In this document: piece by piece, positions 22,090 to 40,852 of the stretch
Layout: the number at the start of each line of letters is the position of its first letter
Position numbering within the stretch: position 1 is the stretch's first letter
Assembly (NCBI GenBank): GCA_038741495.1
Contig: JAVYKX010000004.1
Span: 1-64,000, forward strand
DNA length: 64,000 nt
Direction of reading: 5' to 3'
Source of the DNA: Thermofilum sp.
GTDB taxonomy: Archaea; Thermoproteota; Thermoprotei; Thermofilales; Thermofilaceae
Made by a program: the position numbers and the translations under genes
The notes under the pieces: generated by a model
Databases searched by the model: none
What the model was told of the DNA's origin: nothing
What the model saw: only the letters and a program-made list of their open reading frames with translations

Positions 22090-22092
22090 CAC

Positions 22093-22707: not shown

Positions 22708-23355
22708 GTGCAGCTCGAAGAGCTGGTAGATGCTATCCTCAGACTCGATGAGAGCACGGCTCTGAAGCTGGCTCGCGAGTGGCTCGAGGTGGGGGGCGAC
22801 CCCCTCCTGCTCCTAGAGGCTGTTAGGAGGGCAGCGCAGGTGATCGGCGAACGGTACGAGCGGGGTGAGCTGTTCGTCGCGGACCTTGTCATGGCGGGGG
22901 AGATCCTCAAGGAGGTTAGCGAGCTTGTAAGGCCGCTGCTGCGCGGCGGAGGCGGTAAGCCTGTAGGCAGGCTGGTGATCGGCACCGTGCAGGGCGATAT
23001 CCACGATATTGGAAAGAATATTGTCGTCGCTTTAGCCGAGGCCGCGGGCTTCGAGGTGATCGACTTGGGGGTGGACGTACCCCCCGAGAAGTTCGTGGAA
23101 GCTGTAAGGCGGTACGAGCCTGACGTTGTCGGCCTCTCCGGCCTGCTCTCCGTCTCTATCGAGTCGATGAAGCTTACTGTCAAAGCTCTCGAGGAGGCGG
23201 GCCTGCGGGGCAGGGTGAAAGTCATCATAGGGGGTGGTAGGGTCGACGAGGAAGCGATGAAGTACACGGGAGCGGACGCCTGGGCCGACAGCGCGGCTGC
23301 AGGGGTTAAGATTATGCTGAGCTGGGTTGGGGGTGGGGAGCGTGGCAGCCCTTGA
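22708..23355 (+). CDS. corrinoid (B12)-binding methyl-carrier protein
   Basis: A 215-residue two-domain corrinoid protein like MtbC/MtaC/MetH modules. The N-terminal four-helix cap (about 1-85) is followed by a Rossmann B12 domain with the cobalt-ligating loop GDIHDIGKNIVVALAEAAGF (DxHxxG; His about residue 97), SGLLSVSI and the GGG turn VKVIIGGGRV. It carries a methyl group on cobalt between methyltransferases. GTG 22708 is the start. It overlaps the next gene by 14 bases. No substrate-specific methyltransferase (MttB/MtbB-like) or corrinoid-activating protein lies nearby. Confidence 0.9.
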   Translation: MQLEELVDAILRLDESTALKLAREWLEVGGDPLLLLEAVRRAAQVIGERYERGELFVADLVMAGEILKEVSELVRPLLRGGGGKPVGRLVIGTVQGDIHDIGKNIVVALAEAAGFEVIDLGVDVPPEKFVEAVRRYEPDVVGLSGLLSVSIESMKLTVKALEEAGLRGRVKVIIGGGRVDEEAMKYTGADAWADSAAAGVKIMLSWVGGGERGSP

Positions 23356-24616
23356 GCCGGCAGAGCTCCTCAGGGAGCGTAGAGAGAGGCTGGAGAAGGC
23401 GTACGCAAACCGCGCTCCCGACAGGGTCCCTTTAACCCTCCTCCCCGCTCCCGACCTGGTGGCCAGCTACGCGGGCTTGACTACCGAGGAGTTCTGCTTC
23501 AGCTGGGAGGCGCAGGTAAGGGTTGCCGAGAAGTGGGGTAGCGACTTTAACGTTGAAGGTGTGGACTCTCTGCCTTACTTCGTCCCCGGCCTGGAGATGT
23601 ACCTGCTTCTGCTGGCCTGGGTGGAGAAGCCGGAGGTCGCTGCCTGGGCCAGGTTCCTCATGGGCCCCTTCCACGACATCCTTCAGGACAAGTACACGAA
23701 GTGGCCTGGGAGGGAGCTGGCGCCCACTGCCCACCCTCAGTTCACCGGCGGGAAGTTCATGGAAGCCGATGAGTACAGGTTCCTTGCAGAGGACCCCCTG
23801 GGCTTCGTGAACGAGAGAGTGCTACCACGAGCCTTTGGGCTACTCTCTAGGGGTCGAGCTGAGCTCTACCCCGCGCTCGTGAAGCTAGGGGTTGAACTGC
23901 AGAACTTCTCAGCAACGATGGCGAAGGTGGGCTCCCTCTCGGCTCAGCTCGGCTACCCTTCCTTCCCCACAGGCTGGGGCTACGCCCCCCTGGACTTAAT
24001 CAGCGACTTCCTCAGGTACCCCACCCACACGATGCTTGATCTCCGGCGCCACCCTGACGACGTTAAAGCGGCTGTAGAGTCCCTCACGCCGGTTCTCAGG
24101 AGGTGCGTGAGGGCGTCAACTTCTCCGCCGGAAGTTGCCGAGAAAGCTTTCGGTACTAGAACCGTGCTGGTCTTCTTCCCGCTCCACCTCAACGAAATGC
24201 TGCCGCCAAAGCTCTTCGAAGAGTTCTACTGGCCCAGCCTGAGGGAGGTCGTCCAGGAGGCTTTAAGCCTCGGCGCTAAGCCCTGGATTTTCTTCGAAGG
24301 TAACTTCACGCCCTTCCTGCACTACCTCGAAGACCTGCCCAAGGGCCGCGTCATCGCCTGGTTCGAGAGGACGGACCTCCGGAGAGCGAGGGAAGCTTTG
24401 GGAGATCACGTTGTCTTAATGGGTGGTTTACCGCTCTCGCTGCTGATGCACGGCTCCAGGGAGAAGGTCTACGAGGAAGCCTGCAAGCTGCTTACAGAGG
24501 TTAAAGAGCCAGGCGGCTTCATCTTCGCGGGAGGCCAAGCCTCTCCAACCGCCGCGACACGCATCGAGAACCTGTGGGCTGTGATCGAGGCTACCTTAGC
24601 CTGCGGGAGGTATTGA
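23342..24616 (+). CDS. uroporphyrinogen decarboxylase-family methyltransferase
   Basis: A URO-D superfamily protein of about 424 residues (start GTG 23342 after GGTGGGGAG), coupled to the corrinoid gene. Family members paired with corrinoid proteins move the methyl group between cobalamin and CoM or another acceptor. Visible parts are RERRERLEKAYANRAPDRVP, GPFHDI, FPTGWGYAPLDLISDF, and NEMLPPKLFEEFYWPSLREV. In CoM methyltransferases Zn is bound by HxC in the ILHICG-like strand and by a late Cys; here those places read IFFEGNFTPFL and FAGGQASP, so the Zn ligands appear absent. The acceptor is therefore unknown. Confidence 0.82.
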   Translation: MAALEPAELLRERRERLEKAYANRAPDRVPLTLLPAPDLVASYAGLTTEEFCFSWEAQVRVAEKWGSDFNVEGVDSLPYFVPGLEMYLLLLAWVEKPEVAAWARFLMGPFHDILQDKYTKWPGRELAPTAHPQFTGGKFMEADEYRFLAEDPLGFVNERVLPRAFGLLSRGRAELYPALVKLGVELQNFSATMAKVGSLSAQLGYPSFPTGWGYAPLDLISDFLRYPTHTMLDLRRHPDDVKAAVESLTPVLRRCVRASTSPPEVAEKAFGTRTVLVFFPLHLNEMLPPKLFEEFYWPSLREVVQEALSLGAKPWIFFEGNFTPFLHYLEDLPKGRVIAWFERTDLRRAREALGDHVVLMGGLPLSLLMHGSREKVYEEACKLLTEVKEPGGFIFAGGQASPTAATRIENLWAVIEATLACGRY

Positions 24617-25620: not shown

Positions 25621-26829
25621 TTAGAGCCCCAGCTCCCTCGCTAGCTCCTCGGCGAGACCCGCTCCACCCAGCCGCGCCCAGATCGCGCACGTGCCCTCGA
25701 CGCTCACCATGCAGGGCCCGTAGGGGCTGCTGGGCGTGCACTTCTTCATAAACATGGGGCAGTCCGTCGGCTTCGCCTTCCCGAGAATCACCTCCGCGCA
25801 CCTGCAGCCGGGCGGCGTATCCTTCCTCCAAGTCTCCGGCTTAATCTCCTCGATCCCGAAGTGCTTGAGAGCATCGTACCTGCTCAACTGCTCCCTGATG
25901 CGCAGCCCACTGTAGGGGAGGAAGCCGATGCCCCTCCACGCGCTGTGCACAGTCTCGAAGGCCCTGTGAATCATAGCTTGCGCTTTAAGGTCGCCCTGCC
26001 ACGTCACAGCCCTCGTGTACTCGATGGCGACGCGAGCCTCCCCCGCTTCCAGCTGCCGGAGGATCTCTGCTACCGCTGCGAGAACGTCGACCGGCTCGAA
26101 GCCCGCGACCACTACGGGTATCCCGAAGCTCTCCGCTACGGGAGTCCAGGCTTTCGCGCCTGTAATTGTGGAGACATGGCCGGGAGCTATCACCCCCATC
26201 ACGGGCGGCTCGGTCGGCTTCTCGCGGAGGATCTCGAGCGAGTACAGCATCGCGGGAGGGGTCAGCTTCACGAGGCTCATCACCTTTAGGTTCTCCGGCA
26301 GGGAGCCGCTGAGCAGAGCTTGCGCGTAGCCCGGGGCCACCGTCTCGAAGCCGATCCCCAGGAAGACTGCGTCGCGCCCATGCCTCGCCGCGTCCCGCAC
26401 CGCGTCCCCCACGCTGACGACAACTTTCACGGGCGCGCCGCGCGCTCTCGCACCCTCCAGGCTCGAAACCCCGTCCACGGGGTTGAGCGCCGGGAGCCTG
26501 AAGGTATCACCGTAAGTGTACACGACCACCCCCTCGAGCGCGAGCTTGATCGCGGACTCGATGTAGTACGAGGGGGTGACGCAGACGGGGCAGCCGGGGC
26601 CCGCCACGAGCTCAACCCCCTTGGGGAGCAAGCCTCTGATCCCGTAGTGCACTATAGTCCACTCGTGCGTCCCGCAGAAGTCCATCACCTTGATGCGCTC
26701 CACCCCCAGCTTCGAGACGACTTTCTCGAACTTCTTCTCGATCGCCCTCCTCAAGCTCGCAGCCAGCGGCCGGTTTTCGCGGAAAATCTTCTCGAGCGGG
26801 AAAGCTGCCGCTTCGCTGCTGAGCGCCAT
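25621..26829 (-). CDS. hypD: hydrogenase maturation protein HypD
   Basis: A HypD of about 402 residues, the iron-sulfur scaffold that, with HypC, assembles the Fe(CN)2CO part of the [NiFe] centre. Signatures are MDFCGTHEWTIVHYGIRGLL, LVAGPGCPVCVTP, GFETVAPGYAQALLSG, and the 4Fe-4S cluster cysteines in PPGCRCAEVILGKAKPTDCP. ATG 26829 is chosen: a T7-A TATA-like box lies at about 26857-26864 on the minus strand, and the longer start at 26892 would precede it. No other hyp genes are near. It serves the hydrogenase at 35-41 kb. Confidence 0.95.
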   Translation of the reverse strand: MALSSEAAAFPLEKIFRENRPLAASLRRAIEKKFEKVVSKLGVERIKVMDFCGTHEWTIVHYGIRGLLPKGVELVAGPGCPVCVTPSYYIESAIKLALEGVVVYTYGDTFRLPALNPVDGVSSLEGARARGAPVKVVVSVGDAVRDAARHGRDAVFLGIGFETVAPGYAQALLSGSLPENLKVMSLVKLTPPAMLYSLEILREKPTEPPVMGVIAPGHVSTITGAKAWTPVAESFGIPVVVAGFEPVDVLAAVAEILRQLEAGEARVAIEYTRAVTWQGDLKAQAMIHRAFETVHSAWRGIGFLPYSGLRIREQLSRYDALKHFGIEEIKPETWRKDTPPGCRCAEVILGKAKPTDCPMFMKKCTPSSPYGPCMVSVEGTCAIWARLGGAGLAEELARELGL

Positions 26830-26886
26830 CCGCTTCGGGATGTTTCCACCGTAGAGATAAAAAAAGCTCACTGCTAGACTAGGCGT

Positions 26887-27747
26887 GTGCACGGCGGCCA
26901 GCCCCGCGCAGTCATCACGCTCCCCCTCATCTTCCGCTACGTGTTCGCGGTCGGTTTCCTCTTAGGGGTCCTGGTATTCGCGCTTCTCAGGGAGGCCGGA
27001 GCGGGTGCAGGCGGGGTCAGCCCCCAGGAGTCAGCTGCAGCGCTAGCGGTAGCGATACCCGTAGTGGTGGCCTTGCACGAGGCGGCGCACGCGGCTGCTG
27101 CTCTGCTGCTCGGAGGCTCCCGCGTAGGCTTCGGCGTAGCTAAGCTAGGTCCCTTAGCAGCGGGCATCTACGTGAAAGTCGAGAAGCCTTTGCCGGTTTC
27201 AAGGTGGCTTATCGTCGCGCTCGCCCCCCTGATCATCTCAGCCGCATCCTACCCCTTCATCTTCCTCGGCGGCTTCCCCGGGGCTGTAGCTCTGATGATC
27301 TCTTGGCTCAACGCCGTCGGCGCCTCGGGCGACATCGTCTTCTCGATCCTCGCATCCAGCGCGGGCAGGGGAGCTCTCGTGCAGGACGAAGGCGACAGGC
27401 TCGTCATCGTGGGCGGCAAGCCGCGCGCCGTAGCTCTACTCGCCCTAGACGCGGTCTACGTGTTCTTCGTGAGTTTTCTCGCAGTTGCTGCCGCCTCGCT
27501 GGCTGCAGCAGTGCTCACCCGGAGCGAAGTCGCGCTGGCTGGGCTTCCTCTCGCGGAGTTCGCCGTGCGGGGGCCAGCAGAGCCTGCAGGTTCTCCAGCC
27601 GCGGGGGCCAGCTACGAGGTCACGTTATCGGTAAGGCACGGGTCCGTGCTGGCCGCTCTAGCGGCGACGGGCGTCTTCGAAGCAGCCTTAGGGGCGAGAA
27701 GGTCTAGGCGTCTACTCCACCGCTTAACAGAAGTTGAGGCCAAGTGA
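26887..27747 (+). CDS. membrane zinc metalloprotease-like protein (DUF3267 type)
   Basis: A 286-residue membrane protein with about six helices. The zincin motif VVALHEAAHAAAALLLGG (HExxH, about residue 60) and a second motif NAVGASGDI (about 139-147; Asp as third ligand) are typical of DUF3267/M50-like intramembrane zinc proteins. A hydrophilic loop of about 40 residues precedes the last helix. It is divergent from hypD, with starts only about 60 bases apart. The substrate is unknown. Confidence 0.7.
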   Translation: MHGGQPRAVITLPLIFRYVFAVGFLLGVLVFALLREAGAGAGGVSPQESAAALAVAIPVVVALHEAAHAAAALLLGGSRVGFGVAKLGPLAAGIYVKVEKPLPVSRWLIVALAPLIISAASYPFIFLGGFPGAVALMISWLNAVGASGDIVFSILASSAGRGALVQDEGDRLVIVGGKPRAVALLALDAVYVFFVSFLAVAAASLAAAVLTRSEVALAGLPLAEFAVRGPAEPAGSPAAGASYEVTLSVRHGSVLAALAATGVFEAALGARRSRRLLHRLTEVEAK

Positions 27748-27849: not shown

Positions 27850-29480
27850 CTCTCAGTTGTTTATGGCTCTGCGGGTGACCCGCGCCGTGCTCATCTCCCC
27901 CTTTTGGCCGTTGCGGGCCTCTGGGGCCCGCCCTGCGGCCTCCTCGCGGGATAGCCGGGGCGGGTCATGGGGTCGGCCGCCCTTGGCGGTGGCCTACACC
28001 CTCTCCTTTCAGCGCACCGTCGCCGGAGCGCATCCCCGGAGGGGGACCTCCCAGTTGGTAGCGGGGGTGGACCCTCGATCCCGCGCGCGGAGCACCCGGG
28101 CACCAGCGCCGCCAAAGCGGCAGGGTCCCGGGAAGGGGGGCTCTGGTGCTCGAAACTCGGCGCTAAGACGCTCGGGTGCTCGCGGAGCCATGCTCGCAAC
28201 CTCTCGGCTAGGCCTAGGCCCTCGAGGAACTTGGCGATTAGGGCAATACACGCGTTGTAATCGCGGTTCCAGACCAGGCCGCACTGGCTGCAACGGTAAT
28301 GGCGCCACCCAACCTCGACTCCCCTCCTCCCGCAGAGGGGGCAGTACTGCCCCGAAGCCCTCACCTCCATGTAGAGCGCTCCTTCGTAGCGGCACAGGTT
28401 CTCCAGCCTCCTGCAGATTCTCAGGATGGTGTTCTGCAGCGGCGTCCCCCTCAAGCTCTCGGGGTCCGGCTTGTCCACCACTATCACCACCCTCCCATGC
28501 TCCCTGATCTTTCCACGAAGGTAGTGGACTAGCTGCCTCTCCCACTCCCTCACCCTGGCCGCGTGCGCCCCGTGAACCTCGCCGAGCAGCTCCTTTGCCT
28601 TCGAGGGTGTTAGTGGCACGCTGGCGGGGAATATCTCGCGCAGCTCCCCGTACTTCTCGCGCACCGCCGAGGGGCTGCGCCCGCTCCTAGCGCTGTCCTT
28701 GTAGCTCTGCAGCGCGCTGACCAGCCCCCACTCCTTCCTCGGGGGCTTCACCCTCATCGGCTGCCGCACCATCCTCACCCTGTCCCCGACCTCGAAGCCC
28801 AGTATTGCGAGGCCGTTCCTACTGTTGACGTCGAGGGCGAAGACCGCGAACGGCGCCGGGTAGTCTGCGTCGTCGCACTCCTCACCCGCCTCAGACCACC
28901 ACCTCAGCGGGCTGCGGCGCGCCACCAGCCTAAGCCCGCCAGTGCAGGTGAGGAACATTGTAAAGCGTGGCGGAGGATCTAGCTCCAGCTCCCCGATCAG
29001 CGCTTCGACTAAGCTCCTCTTCAGGGGGATCGCTATCCCCATACCCTTGAACGTCAGCACCCCCCTGTCCAGGTCGAAGCGGCAGACTGCGTGCGCCGCA
29101 CCGTACACCCTCCCCCTCCACCTGAACTGCGCCAGCAGCGGGATCGGCGGAGTCCTCCACTTCCTCCTCTGCTTCCTCCGCCTGCCTTTCCGCCTCTTCG
29201 GTTTATTGGATGAAAGCATGTTCAGGAATTCCTTCTTGTAGTAGAGGTAGTCCTTGTGTGGAAGGACTACCTCGCTCCCCGCGCCGGCCATAGCCTCGAG
29301 GATTACCTTGTAGAGCGCCGCGAGAGCCGCCTCGAGAGCGCTGGAAGCCTTGATCCTGAAGACCCTGAAGCCATCCCCCGGGGCCATCTTCCCAGGGGTT
29401 CCTTTCGCCGTGCCGGCCCCCATCCCCATCCGCCCCCCCAGCTTCACTTGCCCAAACCCTATTTATGGCCGCAAGGGATA
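27850..29480 (-). mobile_element. IS605/IS1341-type element carrying only tnpB
   Basis: The tnpB gene occurs without a tnpA, as in IS1341-type elements. The 3' side (27860-28170) is extremely GC-rich with several self-complementary stretches (for example ggggcccgcc around 27930), as expected for the omega-RNA/right-end region. Exact ends cannot be set by reading. Confidence 0.5.
27891..29447 (-). CDS. tnpB: TnpB-like RNA-guided nuclease/transposase accessory protein
   Basis: A 518-residue TnpB-family protein. There is a basic N-terminal stretch RRKGRRRKQRRK (about 85-96). RuvC-I Asp lies in FALDVNSRNGLAI (about D206), and the RuvC-II region reads VVIVVDKPDPE, with Asp where Glu is usual. A Zn ribbon YCPLCGRRG and YRCSQCG is followed by RuvC-III Asp in NRDYNACIALI (about D396). 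TnpB proteins cut DNA guided by omega-RNA. The last 90 residues are Pro/Arg/Gly-rich and overlap the probable omega-RNA region, so this tail may be translated RNA-gene sequence. The start is uncertain; Mets also occur at residues 7, 9 and 21. Confidence 0.8.
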   Translation of the reverse strand: MKLGGRMGMGAGTAKGTPGKMAPGDGFRVFRIKASSALEAALAALYKVILEAMAGAGSEVVLPHKDYLYYKKEFLNMLSSNKPKRRKGRRRKQRRKWRTPPIPLLAQFRWRGRVYGAAHAVCRFDLDRGVLTFKGMGIAIPLKRSLVEALIGELELDPPPRFTMFLTCTGGLRLVARRSPLRWWSEAGEECDDADYPAPFAVFALDVNSRNGLAILGFEVGDRVRMVRQPMRVKPPRKEWGLVSALQSYKDSARSGRSPSAVREKYGELREIFPASVPLTPSKAKELLGEVHGAHAARVREWERQLVHYLRGKIREHGRVVIVVDKPDPESLRGTPLQNTILRICRRLENLCRYEGALYMEVRASGQYCPLCGRRGVEVGWRHYRCSQCGLVWNRDYNACIALIAKFLEGLGLAERLRAWLREHPSVLAPSFEHQSPPSRDPAALAALVPGCSARGIEGPPPLPTGRSPSGDALRRRCAERRGCRPPPRAADPMTRPGYPARRPQGGPQRPATAKRGR

Positions 29481-29793: not shown

Positions 29794-30363
29794 ATGAGCG
29801 CGCAGGAGCTTTCCAGCCGCCTGGAGGAGGCTGTGTCCCAGTGGAGGAGAAAGTACGCGGAGGAGATTCAGAAAGGACCTTCGAGGCCTAGCGCGGGTAG
29901 GCTGCGGCTTGAGGATTTCCTGGTAGAGAGGAGGCCTTTCTTCTCGAGCATCGACAACTCAGATGTGTTCTACGTTAACACGTTTAGGCTCATCGAGTAC
30001 ACTGCGCTGAGCGACGCCCTCCCCTCCAAGGTCTCGCTGATGAGGTCCTCCGGGTACAACCTGGGGGTCAACCTCGTGCGGAGCGGGCTCGTGCGGAGCC
30101 TCGACGACGCTCCACTAGCACTAGCGCTGTACAGGGTTGGGCTCATGGACGTGGTGAAGGAGAGCTTGAGCTCGATGAAGGTGAATATCTACGAGTGTAT
30201 GAGCTGCTACGGGGTCCCCAACCTGGGTAAGACTCTCTGCGACTTTGAGGCTGGAGTGCTTCAGGGAGTGCTGAGAGAGCTTTACGGCCCGAACATCGTT
30301 CGCGAGAAGTACTGCTGGGGGCTCGGCTTCTCGTTCTGCGGCTTCGAGATCGTTTTCGAGTAG
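29794..30363 (+). CDS. V4R-domain protein
   Basis: A 189-residue protein. The C-terminal 130 residues are a V4R (4-vinyl reductase/hydrocarbon-binding) domain, recognised by YECMSCYGVPNLGKTLCDFE, then AGVLQGVLRELYG and the closing YCWGLGFSFCGFEIVF. The conserved Cys residues suggest ligand, metal or cluster binding. V4R domains act as small-molecule sensors in archaeal and bacterial regulators, but the ligand here is not known. An N-terminal extension (about 55 residues) is helical and charged. It lies 6 bases before the radical-SAM-like/HTH gene and so is probably its sensor partner. Confidence 0.82.
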   Translation: MSAQELSSRLEEAVSQWRRKYAEEIQKGPSRPSAGRLRLEDFLVERRPFFSSIDNSDVFYVNTFRLIEYTALSDALPSKVSLMRSSGYNLGVNLVRSGLVRSLDDAPLALALYRVGLMDVVKESLSSMKVNIYECMSCYGVPNLGKTLCDFEAGVLQGVLRELYGPNIVREKYCWGLGFSFCGFEIVFE

Positions 30364-30369
30364 GTCGGT

Positions 30370-31461
30370 ATGAAGCGCACGCTGCTGTTATCGCTGTCGC
30401 CGAGCTGCGAGGGCAGCTGCCCCTCATGCCCCTTCGTGGGTGGGGAGAGGCTCCTCTCCTACGATGTGCTGAAGCATCTTCTCGAAACTCTCGAGAGAGT
30501 TGACGAGACGGTAGTCGTTTGCTCCTGGGCGAGCCACCCAGACCTGCTTAGGATTGGAAAGCTAGTCTTCGAGGCTTCCAGAAAGGTCACATGGCTCGTT
30601 TCACCAGCCGAGCTGGCTAAACTCGCTAAAGTGCGTGCAGCTCTATCTAGCGCGGACGAGCTGGTAGTCGTTACGCATGAAGCCCAGCAGCCACCCCCGC
30701 TCGAGCACTTGAAGACTATTCTCTCGGCTTTCGATCTGCGCGTCGGACTATGGTGGGTTTTCGGGGATTCTCTACCCGCTTTAGGGAGCTTCAGGGACAC
30801 GGTGAAGCTCGCGCAGAGCATGGGGCTTAAGCTCGTAGTGGGCGAGACCCCGTACAGCTGCGATAGCGGCAGAGATGCTTCACGCTTCGCTTCAGCGCTG
30901 AAAGCCGAGGTCGGCTTGCCGATGGGGCAGGTTTACGGCTACACCGCTGCGAGAGCGTACTTCTACGGCTACCCTGCCCTACTCCTCCTGCGGCCGCTTC
31001 ACCTCCGCGGTTTTCTCTACCTCTCACACGAAGGCCTCCTGCGGAAGCACCCGAGGGATCCTGAAGCCGTGAATGCTAGCGAAGCTGACACTGGCACGCT
31101 GAGGAAGCTTCTCTTCTCCAGCGGCTCCCCCTGCATCAACACGCCGGCCTTCAGGCTCGAGGTTCAGCTGAGCATGAGGGAAGACGCGACGGGTACTGTG
31201 ATAACGCCTCAGATGATCGCTCTCCTCGAGGCTATCCACTCCGTAAAATCCCTGAAAGCTGCCTGCGCTGCGCTCGGAATCCCCTATCCCACCTGCCTGG
31301 AGAAGCTGAAGACGCTCGAGAGGAACCTCGGCCACAAGCTCGTGGAGACGCGGCGTGGGGGTAAGTCTAGGGGGGTGTGCCACCTCACAGAGTTCGGCCT
31401 TCAAGTGCTTGCAGCCTACCGCGAAGCGCTGAGAGCTGTCTACGAGAGAATTCCGGGCTGA
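30370..31461 (+). CDS. radical SAM-like domain fused to ModE-like winged helix
   Basis: A 363-residue protein of unusual build. The N-terminus has a radical-SAM cysteine motif CEGSCPSC (C13-x3-C17-x2-C20) and alternating strands and helices, consistent with a partial TIM barrel (LTLERVDETVVVCSW-like segments). From about residue 275 a LysR/ModE-type winged helix follows: TPQMIALLEAIHSVKSLKAA, CLEKLKTLERNLGHKLVETR, then the wing GVCHLTEFGLQVL. The fusion implies DNA binding controlled by an iron-sulfur or SAM-dependent event. It is transcribed with the V4R gene and lies directly upstream of the CO-dehydrogenase promoter, so it is the obvious candidate regulator. Confidence 0.7.
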   Translation: MKRTLLLSLSPSCEGSCPSCPFVGGERLLSYDVLKHLLETLERVDETVVVCSWASHPDLLRIGKLVFEASRKVTWLVSPAELAKLAKVRAALSSADELVVVTHEAQQPPPLEHLKTILSAFDLRVGLWWVFGDSLPALGSFRDTVKLAQSMGLKLVVGETPYSCDSGRDASRFASALKAEVGLPMGQVYGYTAARAYFYGYPALLLLRPLHLRGFLYLSHEGLLRKHPRDPEAVNASEADTGTLRKLLFSSGSPCINTPAFRLEVQLSMREDATGTVITPQMIALLEAIHSVKSLKAACAALGIPYPTCLEKLKTLERNLGHKLVETRRGGKSRGVCHLTEFGLQVLAAYREALRAVYERIPG

Positions 31462-31507
31462 AATTCATTCAACCGAGTAGTAGCGATAAGCACTCGGCTT
31501 CTCCTTA

Positions 31508-31570
31508 ATAATGTGCATTATGTATAACTCGGAATACATAAAATTCGCGATACAGTATTAGGTCGCAGCG
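31508..31570 (+). promoter_or_regulatory. promoter and palindromic site of the coo operon
   Basis: A perfect inverted repeat ATAATG-TG-CATTAT (31508-31521) lies upstream of a TATA box (tacataaaa, about 31535-31543). The cooF start codon follows at 31571, about 28 bases after the TATA box, so transcript and reading frame would start together. The palindrome position (about -50 to -63) suits an activator. Confidence 0.6.
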
Positions 31571-32194
31571 GTGAGGGGTTTGGAGCAGCTCTTCATCCTA
31601 GTTCTACCCGAGCTGTGCACCGGCTGCAAGTCCTGCGAGATCGCGTGCGCAGTCGAGCATTCGCGGACGAAGTGCATATACACTGCTCACTTGGAGGAAC
31701 CTCGCCCGGTTCCGAGAATTCGCGTACTACTGGCTGACGGGTACTCGGTACCTATGCGTTGCCAGCACTGCGCGGATGCCCCCTGCATGGCTGTATGCCC
31801 CACGAAGGCGATCTCCAGGTCGCCGGAAGGTTTCATCCTGCTGGACAGCGCTAAGTGCATCGGCTGTCTTATGTGCGCGCAGGCGTGCCCCTTCGGCGCG
31901 GTCAGGCTTGACACCGCCCTGAGGGTAGCGGTTAAGTGCGACTTCTGCTTCGAGAGAGTCAGGCAGGGCAGGCAGCCTGCCTGCGCGGAGGCCTGCCCTA
32001 CGAGAGCGCTGCGCTTCGGCACTCTTGAGGAGCTTATGGCGCAGGTCGCGGGAGCTAAAGCACGCGAGGTTCTCAAAAGGCTCTCATCCGAGGCCGGCAT
32101 CCTGGTGGCTAAGCCTGAGAGGGAAAGGGGTGTTGAGACCCCGATGAGCCCCGCGTTCGTCCGGGAGATGTACAGGGGAGCGGGGTGGGTGTAA
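31571..32194 (+). CDS. cooF: CooF-type polyferredoxin, electron carrier of CO dehydrogenase
   Basis: A 207-residue protein with four [4Fe-4S] cysteine sets: CTGCKSCEIAC, CQHCADAPCMAVCP, CIGCLMCAQACP, and CDFCFERVRQGRQPACAEAC. It takes electrons from CooS and passes them to the hydrogenase. GTG 31571 fits the promoter geometry. A C-terminal extension of about 40 residues follows the last cluster. Its TAA stop overlaps the ATG of cooS (TAATG). Confidence 0.92.
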   Translation: MRGLEQLFILVLPELCTGCKSCEIACAVEHSRTKCIYTAHLEEPRPVPRIRVLLADGYSVPMRCQHCADAPCMAVCPTKAISRSPEGFILLDSAKCIGCLMCAQACPFGAVRLDTALRVAVKCDFCFERVRQGRQPACAEACPTRALRFGTLEELMAQVAGAKAREVLKRLSSEAGILVAKPERERGVETPMSPAFVREMYRGAGWV

Positions 32195-34101
32195 TGAGTG
32201 AGGCAAGGAGGTTGAGAGTTAGAGTTCCCGCCGGTGAGGTAACTATCAACCCTGCAGCTGCAGAGCTCATCGAGAAGGCGGAGAGGGAGGGGGTCGAGAC
32301 CGCGTGGCACAGGCACCTCGAGCAGCAGCCGCAGTGCGGCTTCGGTCTCCTAGGTATTTGCTGCAGGAACTGCATGCTGGGACCCTGCAGGATAGACCCC
32401 TTCGGCTACGGCCCAGCGAGAGGAGTCTGCGGTGCGGACGCCGACACGATCGTTGCCAGGAATATCGTCAGGATGATCGCCGCAGGTGCAGCGTCGCACA
32501 GTGACCACGCGCGAGATATTCTTCACGTGTTCGAGCTGGTGGGTGAGGGCAAGACCGCGGCGTACAAGGTCACCGACCCCGAGAAGCTCAGAGCGGTTGC
32601 TAGCGCCCTAGGGATACCGGTGGAGGGTAGGAGCGACCAGGAGATCGTGAGGGATCTCGCTCACGTGCTAGCTCACGAGTTCGGCAAGCCGGGGGAGGAG
32701 CCGCTGAAGCTTCTGCTAGCGCTCGCGCCGAAGAGGAGGAAGGAGCTCTGGAGCAAGTTGGGCGTGATGCCCAGAGCGATCGACAGGGAGGTTAATGAGT
32801 GCATGCACAGGACGCACATGGGCGTGGACGCCGACCCCGTCAACTTGCTGCTTCACGGCGTGAGGACGAGCCTCGCGGACGGCTGGAGCGGCTCCATGAT
32901 GGCTACTTTTCTCAGCGACATCCTCTTCGGGACCCCGAAGCCCGTAAAGTTTGCCGCGAACCTAGGCGTTCTAAGAGAGGATGCTGTCAACATCATCGTC
33001 CACGGCCACAACCCAATCCTCTCAATGAAGATAGCAGAGGTCGCGCTGAGCCAGGAGATGCAGGAGCTCGCGAAGAAGTACGGCGCTAACGGGGTCAACG
33101 TGGCCGGCATATGCTGCACCGGTAACGAGGTGCTCATGAGGCTCGGCGTTCCGGCTATCGGCAACCTCCTGCTCCAGGAGCTCGCCATAATCACAGGCGC
33201 AGTTGAGGCCATGGTCGTTGACTACCAGTGCGTCATGCCGGCTCTCGCGTCCCTAGCGGAGTGCTACCACACTAAGCTGATCACTACGGAGCCGAAGGCG
33301 AAGATCCCTGGCGCTGTGCACATCGAGTTCGACCCCGCGAAAGCCGATGAGATAGCTAAGAGGATAGTCAAGCTCGCTATCGAGAACTACCCCAACAGGA
33401 AGAAGGAGAGGGTTCACATCCCCAAAGAGAAGATGGAGGCTGTTGCCGGCTTCAGCGTGGAAGCCATTCTTAAAGCGCTGGGCGGCTCCCTCGAACCTCT
33501 GCTCAACGCGCTGAAAGACGGGACTATCAAGGGCATCGTCGGCATTGTAGGCTGCAACAACCCGAAGGTGAAGCAGAATTACGGTCACATCACTCTCACC
33601 GAGAAGCTGATCGCCAACGACATCCTGGTAGTAGGCACCGGCTGCTGGGCGATGGCTGCGGCAGCGCACGGCCTCCTCAAGCCCGAGGCAGCGGAGAAAG
33701 CCGGGCCGGGTCTCCGCAAAATCTGCGAGGCGCTGGGCATACCTCCCGCTCTGCACATGGGTAGCTGCGTGGACTGCAGCCGCATCCTGATCGCTCTGAC
33801 GGCTATGGCTGAAGCTCTAGGTGTAGATATCTCCGACCTACCCGTCGCCGGCTCAGCCCCAGAGTGGTACAGCGAGAAAGCTGTCGCTATAGGAACCTAC
33901 TTCGTCGCCACAGGAGTCTTCGTCCACCTCGGTGTCGTGCCGCCAGTCCTCGGCAGCAAGAAGGTCACTAAGCTGCTCACGGAGGACATCGAGGGCGTGT
34001 TCGGAGGAAAGTTCTACGTCGAGCCAGACCCCGTGAAAGCAGCGGACACTATCATCAAGGTGATAATGGAGAAGAGAAAGAAGCTCGGCTGGCCCACTTA
34101 A
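32194..34101 (+). CDS. cooS: Ni-containing anaerobic CO dehydrogenase, catalytic subunit
   Basis: A 635-residue monofunctional CODH (CO + H2O to CO2 + 2 e- + 2 H+). The N-terminal B/D-cluster cysteines are in CGFGLLGICCRNCMLGPCR (about 46-65) and ARGVCGADAD. C-cluster and proton-relay regions are visible as CMHRTHMGVD, IIVHGHNPILSM, GICCTGNEVLMR, VGCNNPKVKQ, GTGCWAMAAAAHG and HMGSCVDCSRI. All usual Cys and His positions that I can place are present. The length fits CooS of carboxydotrophs rather than the CdhA of acetyl-CoA synthase complexes. It is coupled to cooF, with the Ni-insertion genes after it. Confidence 0.96.
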   Translation: MSEARRLRVRVPAGEVTINPAAAELIEKAEREGVETAWHRHLEQQPQCGFGLLGICCRNCMLGPCRIDPFGYGPARGVCGADADTIVARNIVRMIAAGAASHSDHARDILHVFELVGEGKTAAYKVTDPEKLRAVASALGIPVEGRSDQEIVRDLAHVLAHEFGKPGEEPLKLLLALAPKRRKELWSKLGVMPRAIDREVNECMHRTHMGVDADPVNLLLHGVRTSLADGWSGSMMATFLSDILFGTPKPVKFAANLGVLREDAVNIIVHGHNPILSMKIAEVALSQEMQELAKKYGANGVNVAGICCTGNEVLMRLGVPAIGNLLLQELAIITGAVEAMVVDYQCVMPALASLAECYHTKLITTEPKAKIPGAVHIEFDPAKADEIAKRIVKLAIENYPNRKKERVHIPKEKMEAVAGFSVEAILKALGGSLEPLLNALKDGTIKGIVGIVGCNNPKVKQNYGHITLTEKLIANDILVVGTGCWAMAAAAHGLLKPEAAEKAGPGLRKICEALGIPPALHMGSCVDCSRILIALTAMAEALGVDISDLPVAGSAPEWYSEKAVAIGTYFVATGVFVHLGVVPPVLGSKKVTKLLTEDIEGVFGGKFYVEPDPVKAADTIIKVIMEKRKKLGWPT

Positions 34102-34128
34102 AATCGCTCTTTTTTACCGGTGTTTTTA

Positions 34129-34929
34129 ATGAAAGTTGTTGTTACGGGTAAAGGTGGGACGGGGAAGACGAGCACCGCGGCCGCTCTCTCGCTGCAGCTA
34201 GCTGAGATGGGCTACAAGGTTCTCGCGATAGATGCAGACTCCTTTCCGAACCTCGCCAGGAGCCTCGGCCTGTCAGACGAGAACGTGACGCCGCTCACCC
34301 ACAACTTAGAGCTCGTGAGGGAGCGCACGGGCGCGGCTCCTGGCGACGGGTGGGGGCTCTTCTTCTCTCTCACGCCGAAAGTAGACGACCTAGCCGAGAA
34401 GTATGGCGTGAAGGTGAGCGATAACTTGAGCCTCGTTGTCCTCGGGGGGATTGAGCAGCCGGGAGAGGGGTGCATGTGCCCTGCTGTAGCGCTCGCGAAA
34501 GCTTTCCTCAGGCATGTGCTAGCTAACCGAGGCGAGTTCGTAGTTGTTGATTCCGAAGCTGGCTTAGAGGCTTTCGGCCGGGGTCTGGTAGAGTACTTTG
34601 ACCTGAATATCTGCGTGGCTGAGCCGACCGTGAAGGCTCTGGAAGCCTGCGCGAAGATCTTCGAGATGTCTGAGAAGCTCGGCGTTAGAGAGAGCATTCT
34701 TGTTGTAAACAAGGTGCGGGACCTCGCCGGGCTCGGAAGGCTCTTGGAGCGCTTCCCCGCCCAGCAGAGCTTCTTCTCGATCCGCTTCGACTCTCTCCTC
34801 GAGAAGGTTGAGCGGGAGGGGCTCGGGATACGCGAAGCTTCTGGCGGCTTTTTCTGGAGTGACGTGAAAGTTCTCGCCAGGCACGTGGTGTCTCAGGCGA
34901 GGTGGGAGAAATGTGCGAAAGCAAGGTGA
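34129..34929 (+). CDS. cooC: CO dehydrogenase maturation ATPase CooC
   Basis: About 266 residues from ATG 34129. A MinD/SIMIBI ATPase with the deviant Walker A KGGTGKTSTAAALSLQL, a DADSFPNLARSLG switch, and the Cys pair GEGCMCPAVA (CxC) that binds Ni at the dimer interface in the CooC family. It drives Ni insertion into CooS. A T6 run (about 34109-34114) lies between cooS and cooC and might lower read-through. The end overlaps cooT by 19 bases. Confidence 0.93.
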   Translation: MKVVVTGKGGTGKTSTAAALSLQLAEMGYKVLAIDADSFPNLARSLGLSDENVTPLTHNLELVRERTGAAPGDGWGLFFSLTPKVDDLAEKYGVKVSDNLSLVVLGGIEQPGEGCMCPAVALAKAFLRHVLANRGEFVVVDSEAGLEAFGRGLVEYFDLNICVAEPTVKALEACAKIFEMSEKLGVRESILVVNKVRDLAGLGRLLERFPAQQSFFSIRFDSLLEKVEREGLGIREASGGFFWSDVKVLARHVVSQARWEKCAKAR

Positions 34930-35108
34930 TAATCCGCATAGGCAGCGATGAGAGGACGTACGAGGAGGTAGCCTACCTGGGCTTTGAAGGAGGAAGGATA
35001 ACGCTCATCGACATCGAGGGAAGAAAACACGTGATCGAGGGTTTCACACGCGTAGTACGCATCGACGCCAACTTCGTGAAGCACACAGTTCAGGTGGTGC
35101 TGGAGTGA
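34911..35108 (+). CDS. cooT: CooT-type small Ni-binding protein
   Basis: A 65-residue protein starting Met-Cys (MCESKVIIRIGSDERTYEEV), then YLGFEGGRITLIDIEGRKHV and EGFTRVVRIDANFVKHTVQV. The conserved Cys2 and the SH3-like small beta fold are the marks of CooT, which binds Ni and helps CODH maturation. ATG 34911 is chosen over an in-frame start three codons earlier because it gives Cys at position 2. The end overlaps the hydrogenase membrane subunit (GTGA). Confidence 0.85.
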   Translation: MCESKVIIRIGSDERTYEEVAYLGFEGGRITLIDIEGRKHVIEGFTRVVRIDANFVKHTVQVVLE

Positions 35109-36841
35109 GCGCAGCAGTGGCTCTCGAATACTATGTAGCGGCGATCGCCGCTCAACCGCTGGTCGGCCTTCTCGTCTACCCTCTCCAGAGGTTCTCGCAC
35201 CGCCTAGCGAGGGCGCTTCCCGTCGCGAGCTCAGCTGCGCTGCTCGCTATTCTGCTGCTGGGCGTTCAAGGCGGTACTCGGGGCGTGATCCCCTTAGTCA
35301 AGCTCGACCCTCTCTCTCAGATCTTCTCGCTCATGATAGCGCTCATAGGTTTTCTCTGCATGCTCTACTCCTACGAGTACATGGCTCGCGACCCCTCGCC
35401 AGGAAGGTACTACTTCTGGATGCTCACCTTCCTCTCATCGATGCTGCTGCTCGTAATCGCTGATTCGGTGCTCCTGTTCCTGCTCGCGTGGGAGCTTACG
35501 AGCCTGTGCTCGTTCAGCTTGATTTCCCACTGGAACTTCAGGAGAGAGAGCCTAGCAGGAGCTTTCAAGGCGTTAGCTGTAACCGAGCTAGGCAGCTCAC
35601 TCGTACTACTTGGTTTCGTGCTGTCTGGGGGCATAACGCTGAGCAGCGCGCTCGAGCGGGCGGGGGCTGCTGCGCAAACCCTTCTCGTTCTAGGCGCTCT
35701 CGCGAAGTCGGCACAGTACCCGTTTCTCATCTGGCTGCCTGACGCGATGGAGGCTCCTACTCCAGTCAGCGCGTACCTGCACGCAGCGGCTATGGTGAAA
35801 GCTGGGCTGTACCTCCTCGCTAGGCTTTCGGCATCGATGCAGGCGCCCGTCGCCTGGCTCACGGTGGTTATCGGCTGTGTCTCTATGCTGGCTGGAAGCT
35901 TTCTCATGCTCTTCCCCAACGATGTCAAAAGAGTGCTCGCCTACAGCACTATCTCGCACCTCGGTCTTCTAACATCCACGGTCCCTACAGCGGGCTTAGT
36001 GCCTACTCTCGTGCATTTCGTGAACCACGCTGTCGCTAAAGCGCTCCTCTTCCTCACTGCAGGAGCGGTAGAGCACGAGACGGGGAAGAGGAGCTTAACC
36101 GAGCTCGGAGGGCTGGCAGCGGGGATGCCCATTACTGCTGCCTGCTTCACTGCCGGCTTCCTGTCGCTCGCGGGGATCCCTCTCTTCGGAGGTTTCGTGA
36201 GCAAGTGGCTGGTTCTCTACAGCGCTATCGCCAGCGGGGGCCTTGGGTGGCTGCTTCTCGTATCGCTGCTTGCCTCCACTGTCTTCGCGTTCATGGGGTT
36301 AGCGAGGGTTGCCGGGGGAGTCTTTTTCGGCTCACCGGTAGAGGGGGAGAAGGCTAGAGAACCCGGGATTCCCATGTCGATACCTATGCTTGTGCTCGCC
36401 GCTGGTACTGTTCTCCTCGGAGTTTACCCAGCGCCTCTCATCGACTGGGCTGCGTTGGCTGCTGGAAAAGCACCGCCGCAAGGGACCTCGGTCCCCGCCC
36501 TGCCCTCGGGAGCTGTGGGCGCTGCCGTAGCTGCTCTCCTCCTTGGAGCGGTTGCCATTGGAGCTGTTGCATTCTTCGTCTCAAGAGGACTGCGTCCCGC
36601 AGCAGTCTACGTGTGCGGTGAGGACCCGGCTGAAGCGAGAACCTCAGGAGTCCACCTCTTCTCAGACCTCTTCAGAGCGTCGCGGAAGTACTTGTTCCTC
36701 GCCGACCCGGATGCGTGGGTAGTTCCGCTGGCTAAAAGCTTGCACACTATTCTGGAGAGAAAGCTTACGTCGAGGAAGTTCTGCATCGCAGCTACCATCT
36801 CGCTCATACTACTCATCGCTCTATCCTTCGCGGTGAGGTGA
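35105..36841 (+). CDS. group 4 hydrogenase antiporter-like membrane subunit (NuoL/EchA/HyfB type)
   Basis: A 578-residue protein with about 15 helices, of the proton-conducting antiporter family. Conserved parts are LLFLLAWELTSLCSFSLISH (with the Glu on helix 5), the LPDAMEAPTPVSAYLHAAAM loop, the Lys in AAMVKAGLYLLAR, and the LTELGGLAAGMPITAACFTA region with HFVNHAVAKALLFLTAGAVE. It pumps ions using energy from hydrogen formation. There is one antiporter-size subunit, shorter than CooM of Rhodospirillum. It overlaps cooT, so CODH and hydrogenase genes form one transcription unit. Confidence 0.9.
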   Translation: MSAAVALEYYVAAIAAQPLVGLLVYPLQRFSHRLARALPVASSAALLAILLLGVQGGTRGVIPLVKLDPLSQIFSLMIALIGFLCMLYSYEYMARDPSPGRYYFWMLTFLSSMLLLVIADSVLLFLLAWELTSLCSFSLISHWNFRRESLAGAFKALAVTELGSSLVLLGFVLSGGITLSSALERAGAAAQTLLVLGALAKSAQYPFLIWLPDAMEAPTPVSAYLHAAAMVKAGLYLLARLSASMQAPVAWLTVVIGCVSMLAGSFLMLFPNDVKRVLAYSTISHLGLLTSTVPTAGLVPTLVHFVNHAVAKALLFLTAGAVEHETGKRSLTELGGLAAGMPITAACFTAGFLSLAGIPLFGGFVSKWLVLYSAIASGGLGWLLLVSLLASTVFAFMGLARVAGGVFFGSPVEGEKAREPGIPMSIPMLVLAAGTVLLGVYPAPLIDWAALAAGKAPPQGTSVPALPSGAVGAAVAALLLGAVAIGAVAFFVSRGLRPAAVYVCGEDPAEARTSGVHLFSDLFRASRKYLFLADPDAWVVPLAKSLHTILERKLTSRKFCIAATISLILLIALSFAVR

Positions 36842-36846
36842 GGGGC

Positions 36847-37263
36847 ATGGAAGCTCGGGAAGTTCTCCGCAGCCTTGAGGCTGAAGGAGTCCTAAGCGGT
36901 CTTAGGCAGCTCCGGTCGAGACGCTGGAGCGCTGCAGTAGAACCCGGGAACATCAGGCGTCTAGCTGAGCGCATGGGATCCCTGAAGGCTCACTTCTCAG
37001 CACTCACGTGCATCGACTTGGGCGACAGGTTTGAGCTGATCTACCACTTTGACCTCGAGGGAGAGCTGGTCAACGTGTCCACGCTGGTTCCTAAAGCTCT
37101 GCCGGCTTTACCCTCTATCGCGGATATTCACCCTCCGGCTGACTTCTACGAGAGAGAGGTGGCAGAAATGTTCGGTGTGAAGTTCGAGGGGGCGCCGCGG
37201 TCTGGGAGGCTTCTCCTGCCCGAGGATTGGCCTCCCGGAGAGTACCCGCTGAGGAGGTGGTAG
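36847..37263 (+). CDS. group 4 hydrogenase 30-kDa-like subunit (NuoC/EchD type)
   Basis: About 138 residues, NuoC-like: MGSLKAHFSALTCIDLGDRF, LIYHFDLEGELVNVSTLVPK, then the typical HPPADFYEREVAEMFGVKFE and the RRLLLPEDWPPGEYPLRR-like end. It links the large subunit to the membrane part. ATG 36847 has GGTGAG before it; GTG 36838, overlapping the previous stop, is an alternative. Confidence 0.88.
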   Translation: MEAREVLRSLEAEGVLSGLRQLRSRRWSAAVEPGNIRRLAERMGSLKAHFSALTCIDLGDRFELIYHFDLEGELVNVSTLVPKALPALPSIADIHPPADFYEREVAEMFGVKFEGAPRSGRLLLPEDWPPGEYPLRRW

Positions 37264-37265
37264 GT

Positions 37266-38348
37266 GTGGCTGCCGCGATCCGCGTACCTTTCGGTCCTTA
37301 CCACCTAGCGCTCGAGGAGCCTTTCAGGGTGGATATCGAGGCTGAGGGGGAGAGGGTGAGGGAAGCCGTAGTAAGGATAGGGTACGTCCATAGGGGGATC
37401 GAGTGGCTGCTTCAGAGGAAAAGGTGGTTCGAGGGCTTGAGGATAGTGGAGAGAGTTTGCTCCATATGCACGCAGGCTCACAGCCAGTGCTTCGCCCAGG
37501 GTGTGGAGGAGCTAGCCGGCGTTGAGGTGCCGGAGAAGGCGAAGTGGATCCGGATAGTGGTCGCGGAGCTTAACAGGATAGAGAGCCACCTTCTCGCGCT
37601 GGGCGTTCTCGCGCACAAAGCAGGCTTCAGCACGCTCTTCATGTACACTTGGTACGCGAGGGAAAGCATTATGGACGCTCTCGAAATGCTCACCGGGAAC
37701 AGGGTTCAGTACGCGATTAACGTGCTGGGCGGGGTCAGGAGGGATGTAGACGGGAGTGTGAAAGCCGCTGTTGAGGGGAAGCTTCACGAGGCTTTAAGGC
37801 TCCTCGACCGCTTCAGGAGAGTTTTCCTCGAGGATAGGTCACTGAAGTCGAGGCTGGCGGGCGTGGGCACCTTGAGCAGGGAGGATGCGGTGAAGTTCTC
37901 TGTGGTGGGGCCTGTCCTCAGAGCTTCAGGAGTTGAATGGGATCTCAGGAGGAAGGACCCGTACCTGGCTTACGACCAATTAGAGTTTAACGTCGTCGTG
38001 AGAGATGAGGGCGACACCTACGCGAGGACAGCGGTGAGGCTCGAGGAAGTTTACGAGTCCGCGAAGATCATCCGCCAAGCTCTGCGCGAGATGCCTGAAG
38101 GGCCTTTATCGGTCCCCGTGGAGCGTGTTCCTCCCGGCTCGGTAGTGAGCAGGGTGGAGGCGCCGCGGGGAGAACTGCTCTACTGCATTGTCAGCGACGG
38201 CGGGGATACTCCTTCTCGCGTGAAGATACGCACTCCCACTTTACCCAACGTCAGAGTCCTCGAGCACATTCTCGTAGGCTGCCAGGTTGCTGACGTACCG
38301 ATAATCATCGGGAGCATTGACCCGTGCATATCTTGCGAGGATAGGTGA
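37266..38348 (+). CDS. [NiFe]-hydrogenase large subunit (NuoD/EchE/CooH type)
   Basis: A catalytic subunit of about 360 residues. The L1 motif RVCSICTQAHS and the L2 motif DPCISCEDR at the very C-terminus supply the four Ni-Fe cysteines, so this is a real hydrogenase and not a complex I relative. Other family parts are YVHRGIEWLLQ, ELNRIESHLLALGVLAHKAG and MLTGNRVQYAINVLGGVRRD. It ends right after L2 and has no C-terminal peptide to be removed, as in CooH. GTG 37266 lies 9 bases after GAGGAGG. HypD at 25.6-26.8 kb would help mature it. Confidence 0.93.
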   Translation: MAAAIRVPFGPYHLALEEPFRVDIEAEGERVREAVVRIGYVHRGIEWLLQRKRWFEGLRIVERVCSICTQAHSQCFAQGVEELAGVEVPEKAKWIRIVVAELNRIESHLLALGVLAHKAGFSTLFMYTWYARESIMDALEMLTGNRVQYAINVLGGVRRDVDGSVKAAVEGKLHEALRLLDRFRRVFLEDRSLKSRLAGVGTLSREDAVKFSVVGPVLRASGVEWDLRRKDPYLAYDQLEFNVVVRDEGDTYARTAVRLEEVYESAKIIRQALREMPEGPLSVPVERVPPGSVVSRVEAPRGELLYCIVSDGGDTPSRVKIRTPTLPNVRVLEHILVGCQVADVPIIIGSIDPCISCEDR

Positions 38349-38914
38349 TGAGCATGGCGGAGCTGTTTCTCCTGCTAGCCTCGTTGGCCGCGGGGGTGCT
38401 TCTCATAGCTCAGCGCCGCGCCGAGTGGTTCCTCGTGTTCGCATGGCTCTCGTACCTACCTTTAGCTTTTCTCTCGCAGGCGAGGTCACTCGACGCACGC
38501 CTGCTGGCAGCCTCTCTAGGGTATCTAGCCAGCGCTACGATCTTGGTTCTCTCGCTCTCAAGCGCGCTGGGTCGAGATGTCCGCAGCCTGCGGGGAGCCG
38601 TCGGCAAGTACTCGCTGGAGGGGTGGCTTCTAGCCTTCCACATGCTTGCACTGGCCGCGCTACCACCTTTCGCTAACTTCACCTGGCTTGAGAGCTTAGC
38701 GAGGACCGCGCCGGAAATTGCTTCAGCGCTGGCAGCAGTGAGGGTCTCGTGGCTTCTCGGCTTCTCCCGCTTAGCGGTGGAAGCGATGTTTGCTCCTCCC
38801 GAGGGCGGTGGAAAGCTGCGTACGAGAGTCTGGCCGCTAGAGCTCTTCCTGTTCGTTCTTCTCACCGCAGCTTCCCTAGCTCTGCTGGTAGAGGAGTTGG
38901 GGGGTGGTGCGTGA
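38348..38914 (+). CDS. small hydrogenase membrane protein, antiporter-helix fragment
   Basis: About 188 residues and five or six helices. A central segment FHMLALAALPPFANFTWLES matches the helix 11-12 stretch of NuoL/M/N-type antiporters (H-x-LAL-x-LPPF), but the rest of an antiporter is missing. It is not a standard Ech or Coo subunit that I can name. It sits inside the operon with ATGA-type overlaps on both sides, so it is probably a real membrane subunit. It may replace part of a second antiporter or a HyfE-like subunit. Confidence 0.65.
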   Translation: MSMAELFLLLASLAAGVLLIAQRRAEWFLVFAWLSYLPLAFLSQARSLDARLLAASLGYLASATILVLSLSSALGRDVRSLRGAVGKYSLEGWLLAFHMLALAALPPFANFTWLESLARTAPEIASALAAVRVSWLLGFSRLAVEAMFAPPEGGGKLRTRVWPLELFLFVLLTAASLALLVEELGGGA

Positions 38915-39333
38915 TGAGGGGGTATGTTCTGAGGAGAAGCATCTGGGTGTACCACTTGAATACGGGTGCCTGTAACGGCTGCGATATAGAGGCTATCGCT
39001 GCGCTGGCTCCCCGTTACGATGTTGAGCGCTTCGGCGTAAAGCTCGTCGGGTCTCCGAGGCACGCTGACGTCCTCCTAGTAACGGGGCCCCTCACGAGGC
39101 AAGCGCTCTCGAGAGTGAAGAGGGTGTACGACATGGTTCCAGAGCCTAAAGTGGTTGTAGCCGTAGGTACTTGCGCGTGCGATGGCGGAGTATTCAAGGA
39201 GAGCCCCATGGTGTGCTCCCCCCTTGAGAGGTTTTTACCCGTGGATGTGCGCGTCTACGGCTGCCCTCCAAGGCCCCATAACATACTGAGGGGGGTGCTG
39301 GAGGCAGCGGAAATCTTATCGAGGAAGAGGTGA
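38914..39333 (+). CDS. group 4 hydrogenase small subunit (NuoB/EchC/CooL type)
   Basis: 139 residues with the NuoB-like proximal [4Fe-4S] ligands: LNTGACNGCDIEAIAAL (C-x2-C), VAVGTCACDGGVF and VRVYGCPPRPHNIL. It transfers electrons from the ferredoxin-like subunit to the large subunit. ATG 38914 overlaps the previous stop. Confidence 0.94.
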   Translation: MRGYVLRRSIWVYHLNTGACNGCDIEAIAALAPRYDVERFGVKLVGSPRHADVLLVTGPLTRQALSRVKRVYDMVPEPKVVVAVGTCACDGGVFKESPMVCSPLERFLPVDVRVYGCPPRPHNILRGVLEAAEILSRKR

Positions 39334-39338
39334 GTGCG

Positions 39339-40824: not shown

Positions 40825-40852
40825 TTTAAACTGCAGCGGGAATTTGTCCCTT
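40825..40852 (+). promoter_or_regulatory. promoter of the translin gene
   Basis: TTTAAA at 40825-40830 lies 23 bases before ATG 40853, the geometry of a leaderless archaeal gene. It decides against an in-frame TTG at 40844. Confidence 0.5.

Follow-up and report, generated by a model that had tools for sequence, protein, structure and literature searches.

The window, a stretch of 64,000 nucleotides from a Thermofilum genome, carries on its forward strand two adjacent genes followed by a set of genes for anaerobic CO metabolism. The first, a homologue of corQ (29794-30363), encodes a V4R protein of 189 amino acids. The second, a homologue of corR (30370-31461), encodes a protein of 363 amino acids in which a predicted radical-SAM/SPASM-like domain (residues ~1-270) precedes a ModE/LysR winged helix (residues 278-357). 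The initial annotation had placed the two genes six bases apart, and we confirmed both their coordinates and the gap (30364-30369). The first gene 3' of the pair encodes a CooF-like 4Fe-4S protein (31571-32194; Fer4_11, 7.6e-25) and is syntenic in every CorR locus that was inspected closely. It is followed by cooS, the catalytic subunit of an anaerobic Ni-CO dehydrogenase (32185-34101), by a cooC-like CODH accessory ATPase of the CbiA/ParA P-loop type (34120-34929) and by an energy-converting hydrogenase or Nuo-like membrane cluster with NuoL- and NuoD-type matches (35105-40759). The match of cooS to TIGR01702 (766 bits, cut-off 478) bears out the view that the pair adjoins a CO-dehydrogenase operon. 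The cooC-like ATPase is about 50% identical to the product of the gene after cooS in loci L072, L085 and L086, and homologues of the hydrogenase cluster lie downstream of cooS in L085 and L089.

Several other genes lie around this cluster. Upstream of corQ, on the reverse strand, is a gene for a TnpB-like protein of 518 amino acids (27891-29447) with a weak match to the NCBIfam TnpB model, which may mark a mobile element close to the CODH cluster. The hydrogenase maturation protein HypD is also encoded near the CODH/hydrogenase cluster on the reverse strand (25621-26892). A B12-binding corrinoid protein and then a URO-D-type methyltransferase-like protein occupy 22708-24616 of the forward strand, and an open reading frame with long tandem heptad repeats of the type LREEQxKIWEEIKQ occupies 21124-22092 of the reverse strand. 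Directly 3' of the hydrogenase cluster lies a gene for a Translin-family protein (40844-41464, forward strand; Pfam 3.3e-14).

The V4R domain of CorQ was recognized by Pfam above the cut-off (PF02830, E=1.6e-11). The cysteines that the initial annotation considered conserved are indeed so within the CorQ clade, where the alignments show conservation of C135-x2-C138, C149, E171, C174 and C182; V4R paralogues in related genomes have serines in place of the C135-x2-C138 pair. An AlphaFold2 model of CorQ (pLDDT 75.6) gave Foldseek matches to PoxR, MopR, MJ1460 and Bet3 of the V4R/Bet3 superfamily. C149, C174 and C182 align with the metal-ligand cysteines of V4R sensors. E171 may be a fourth metal ligand; its spacing presumably fits that of MopR. 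The zinc ligands of DmpR are Cys151, Cys177 and Cys185, and the spacing of DmpR Glu172, as printed, is unlike that of E171 (PMC7264223). CorQ thus has the V4R fold and the aligned metal-ligand cysteines in common with the aromatic sensors PoxR, MopR and DmpR, but these are sigma54 AAA+ regulators with aromatic ligands. A second relative is MsvR, a V4R regulator of methanogens, in which a V4R domain with conserved cysteines is also linked to transcription control. The NCBIfam model for MsvR (NF053755) aligns residues 57-186 of CorQ with the C-terminal half of the profile, from position 105, with a score of 44 bits against a cut-off of 220, which leaves CorQ outside the MsvR family. Unlike MsvR, which has its own N-terminal helix-turn-helix (HTH), CorQ lacks an HTH and is paired with a partner gene.

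CorR had been described as a radical-SAM-type N-terminus joined to a ModE/LysR winged helix. The cysteine motif and the winged helix stand, while the radical-SAM assignment is weak by sequence and is supported by the fold. The triad C13-x3-C17-x2-C20 is encoded at 30406-30429 (forward strand) and the winged helix, residues 278-357, at 31201-31440 (forward strand). The latter matches Pfam HTH_1 (8.9e-7), which was found in all seven of the family members, and residues 278-355 match the ModE_repress domain TIGR00637 (5e-14) with 52 bits, below the curated cut-off of 98.5. The best match of the Pfam Radical_SAM model was E=0.14 in the window protein and 0.0087 in a homologue, with none over the cut-off; searches of PDB sequences returned only ModE/LysR HTH matches and sub-threshold radical-SAM matches. 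We then predicted the structure of the 363-residue protein with AlphaFold2 from seven family members (pLDDT 78.1, pTM 0.64). In the model, a barrel of alternating beta and alpha elements is followed by an extension rich in strands and then by the winged helix. Foldseek matched it to PqqE (3e-5), EpeE (9e-5) and BlsE, with E values from 3e-5 to 3e-4 and TM scores of ~0.4, and its HTH part to ModE (9e-4). The prediction therefore supports, at the fold level, a partial TIM-barrel with a radical-SAM/SPASM-like fold for residues 1-270, in front of a ModE-like winged helix. The fusion protein is the likely DNA binder, as had been proposed.

The cysteine sites of CorR are not equally conserved. The triad C-x3-C-x2-C is intact in 21 of the 26 homologues that could be assessed; the departures include a C-x6-C arrangement in Desulfurococcales, loss of the first cysteine in genome G085 and absence of the motif in L089. 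A C-x8-G-x4-C pair, which resembles the auxiliary-cluster motif of twitch domains, is kept in 26 of 27 CorR proteins, that of the window being the only one to have lost it, and C51 is retained in nearly all homologues. Judged from these alignments, the triad highlighted at first is not the most conserved site of CorR. These data bear on the alternative that the N-terminal part of CorR functions as a radical-SAM enzyme, making or modifying some product, and that the HTH only coordinates its expression. Both cysteine motifs occur in most homologues and the best structural matches are SPASM/twitch radical-SAM enzymes, as this explanation would predict. CorR differs from the SPASM/twitch enzymes PqqE, BlsE and EpeE, however, in that its cysteine ligands are not universally conserved and that it is always fused to a DNA-binding domain; it also always lies beside cooS. 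Since the triad is broken or absent in some members and the twitch-like pair is lost in the window protein, catalysis is unlikely to be a function common to the family, and we regard a working enzyme as improbable. The scaffold of CorR, as modelled, is a degenerate radical-SAM enzyme fold with a putative role in gas sensing.

The winged helix is common to CorR and the ModE/LysR regulators, but in CorR it is C-terminal, fused to the radical-SAM-like domain and accompanied by neither a molbindin nor a PBP domain. The layout of the ModE repressor, an N-terminal HTH followed by a molybdate-binding domain, is not that of the window protein. We also considered whether nearby ModE-HTH proteins mostly have the same fusion as CorR. 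This was rejected; their domain order is the opposite one, with a binding-protein-like domain.

The names CorQ and CorR come from Thermococcus onnurineus; we follow the usage of the abstract of Kim and colleagues from 2015, in which CorQ is reportedly the V4R protein. In this organism the two CorQR proteins, one with a V4R (4-vinyl-reductase) domain and the other with a DNA-binding domain of the LysR type, are encoded beside the CODH-hydrogenase cluster (PMC6557876, where the two names are swapped relative to our usage). CorQR activates the CODH gene cluster (PMC4791640), and in these papers it is defined by genetics and described only by the two domains (PMC6557876, PMC4791640). The genome G210, one contig of 1,847,607 bp, was assigned to T. 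onnurineus NA1 by matching published mutation coordinates to codons, and we accept this assignment because those coordinates agree with the codons for Thr55 of TON_1525 and Leu65 of TON_0820: position 1400830 lies in the Thr codon for residue 55 of a Tfx-like protein and position 760634 in the Leu codon for residue 65, with both residues counted from internal ATG codons. In this genome corQ is located at 938.5-939.0 kb and corR at 939.0-940.2 kb, with cooF and cooS next. The CorQ proteins of the window and of T. onnurineus are 46% identical over 178 amino acids (E=5e-61), and the CorR proteins 28% identical over 366 columns (E=1e-34). CorR of T. onnurineus has the same C-x3-C-x2-C motif, radical-SAM-like N-terminus and C-terminal winged helix. 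The two pairs also agree in gene order, in domain types and in their site directly upstream of cooF-cooS-cooC-hydrogenase; the order corQ-corR-cooF-cooS-cooC-nuoL is common to the window, T. onnurineus, L085 from Desulfurococcales and L086 and L088 from Thermococci.

The predicted orthology of the window pair to CorQ and CorR of T. onnurineus rests on this full-length identity together with synteny. Because the same proteins occur in the same order and layout in T. onnurineus, the window pair is identified as CorQR, and CorR proteins ordinarily have this fusion. The suggestion in the initial annotation that the pair represents a new type of regulator unlike CorQR is therefore refuted, while its picture of a two-gene regulator, V4R plus a radical-SAM-like domain with a winged helix, tied to a CODH operon is supported. 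The pair very probably is a CO-responsive regulator of the adjacent cooF-cooS-cooC-hydrogenase operon. It extends a known kind of regulator to one more lineage and is not new in itself; we know of no earlier report of CorQR in this lineage. There are three differences from T. onnurineus: the window CorR lacks the twitch-like cysteine pair, the two genes are 6 bp apart and do not overlap, and the promoter has a CCGAGT-N13-ACTCGG dyad and no GAWCACG box. The divergence of the window CorR (28% identity), together with the missing cysteine pair and box, means that its activity or signal may differ.

We searched for further loci with an archaeal cooS alignment and inspected the neighbourhoods of the cooS genes. 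The scan found loci in Desulfurococcales, Thermococci, a Thermoproteota archaeon and a MAG labelled Bathyarchaeota. In these loci at least the fusion gene, if not the whole pair, lies beside cooS, in most of them directly upstream of it; in L089 CorR is beside cooS but on the opposite strand. The CorR family was recovered in this way, through synteny with cooS. A scan of genome contigs with the single CorR protein gave no confirmed relative, because the N-terminal domain diverges fast, and a phmmer search restricted to the first 270 residues had no match beyond the window.

The linkage was quantified with a CorR profile and a cooS search in 151 Thermococci-centred genomes and in 398 genomes of the window's phylum. 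Full-length CorR was present in 16 and 9 of these genomes and cooS in 48 and 40, respectively. In all 25 CorR genomes cooS follows on the same strand, 748-886 bp downstream of the CorR match, a distance that leaves room for cooF. The CorR profile found no match in any of the 103 + 358 genomes without cooS, so that the expected co-occurrence holds. Fisher tests gave 1.5e-9 for the Thermococci-centred set and 4e-10 for the phylum, values that overstate independence because the genomes in both sets are related. Most genomes with cooS lack CorR and must therefore be regulated otherwise. This linkage also bears on the explanation that the window protein is a generic ModE-type regulator for molybdate or tungstate that adjoins cooS by chance. 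Its HTH is closest to ModE, and related genomes encode many ModE-HTH proteins, but these have an N-terminal HTH and a binding-protein-like C-terminus or stand alone, and the matches to the full CorR profile are linked to cooS in every one of the 25 genomes. We consider a chance neighbour of this kind exceedingly improbable.

CorQ is encoded just upstream of CorR in 23 of 27 loci, counting a weak V4R match in L187, and in most Thermococci the two genes overlap by 4 bp. No CorQ is found beside CorR in G085, G407 and G442, and the locus L182 runs off its contig. In G085 (L072 / L090) CorR lies directly upstream of cooF-cooS with no adjoining corQ, and no V4R protein was found in this genome, which is 85% complete; G407 and G442 have V4R proteins elsewhere. 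The three genomes are 80-88% complete. CorQ may therefore not be obligatory everywhere. Among seven genomes sampled in the genus, that of the window is the only one with cooS or with the full pair, which suggests that the whole CODH cluster was gained laterally in this lineage.

The gap between corR and cooF in the window measures 109 bp (31462-31570). In 19 of 26 homologous gaps, from three lineages, we found a GAWCACG box, which usually reads CCGAACACG and precedes by a few bases an A+T-rich block that resembles a BRE/TATA element; in 2000 shuffles at most 5 of the 26 gaps contained the box. It is absent, on the same strand, from every corQ upstream region that was checked, and it is also absent from the window gap. 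There, at 31501-31512 (forward strand), CTCCTTAATAAT is the probable BRE/TATA element of the cooF-cooS promoter, given its position and its resemblance to the A+T-rich block of the homologues. The window gap contains five perfect 6-bp dyads, compared with a shuffle mean of 0.6; 3 of 500 shuffles reached five. Of these dyads, three lie nested within 31518-31541. The perfect dyad CCGAGT-N13-ACTCGG at 31473-31497, identified in the dyad scan, takes the position equivalent to that of GAWCACG in the homologues and is a candidate operator. The initial annotation had proposed the 14-bp palindrome ATAATG-TG-CATTAT at 31508-31521 for this role. The palindrome is real, but it is seen only in the window, being absent from the homologous promoters that were scanned for dyads, and another site is conserved. 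The dyad at 31473-31497 appears the likelier operator because the palindrome overlaps the core promoter and is not seen in homologues. No genome-wide enrichment of the promoter 10-mer CCGAACACGR was seen across Thermococcus genomes, where a reversed-pattern control gave similar counts; we therefore claim no wider regulon. In the loci without an adjoining CorQ the box is missing and the wing of the winged helix is changed, which is consistent with co-evolution of protein and site.

To our knowledge, the mechanism by which archaea sense CO without heme is not understood. We propose that CorQ and CorR would be co-translated and act as a complex, and that CorR would bind just upstream of the BRE/TATA element of the cooF promoter. 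In the presence of CO, or of the redox change that CO brings about, CorR would help to recruit the transcription machinery. Either of two sites could take up the signal: one or more Fe-S clusters of CorR, held in its radical-SAM-derived domain, or the V4R domain of CorQ with its zinc and cysteines.

It is quite possible that the zinc/cysteine site of CorQ does the sensing and that CorR is a passive DNA-binding adaptor. The V4R domain is the effector-binding part of PoxR, MopR and DmpR, which sense aromatic compounds (PMC7264223), and the redox-responsive part of MsvR (PMC3729527). C149, C174 and C182 of CorQ are kept, and its C135-x2-C138 pair is missing from the paralogues in related genomes. 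This explanation leaves unexplained, however, both the retained cysteine sites of CorR and the loci in which CorR occurs without CorQ. It is also possible that CorR alone senses CO or redox state through an Fe-S cluster, with CorQ as a modulator or stability partner. CorR stands by cooS without an adjoining CorQ in three genomes, one of them with no V4R protein found, and its twitch-like pair and C51 are widely retained. Yet the CorR proteins of these three genomes differ in the wing and their promoters lack the box, two of the genomes have V4R proteins elsewhere, and all three are incomplete. In addition, deletion of corQ reportedly impairs growth on CO in T. onnurineus, according to the same abstract by Kim and colleagues. 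We would place the sensor in the V4R domain first and in CorR second, neither being probable by itself, and assign the rest to joint or indirect sensing. It is conceivable, if doubtful, that CorR is a CO or redox sensor with an Fe-S cluster in a repurposed radical-SAM/SPASM barrel and a V4R co-regulator, and would form a class of gas sensors apart from CooA and RcoM, which sense through heme.

What appears to be new here is the structural reading of CorR, as modelled, and the predicted binding site. The comparison indicates a domain of radical-SAM origin in CorR, with conserved cysteine sites, and it predicts the DNA box of CorR in most lineages. The natural variants, which lack CorQ, the twitch cysteines or the triad, make the question of the sensor directly testable, and G085, with CorR but without CorQ, is a natural test of the need for CorQ.

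Two further loci are related to this system. A CorR relative of 528 amino acids is encoded at L053:6686-8272 in G003, a genome of the same genus without cooS. It has the radical-SAM-like triad, a ModE-type HTH and an extra C-terminal domain, and it adjoins genes for a FocA-type transporter, a formate dehydrogenase, an Fe-S subunit and a NuoL-like protein. Only a single copy of this type was found in 81 genomes of the class; it is possibly a formate-hydrogenlyase counterpart of CorR. The bacterium GBS-1 (L087) has a cooS 72% identical to that of the window, without CorQR; the open reading frames upstream of it encode 113, 199 and 279 amino acids.
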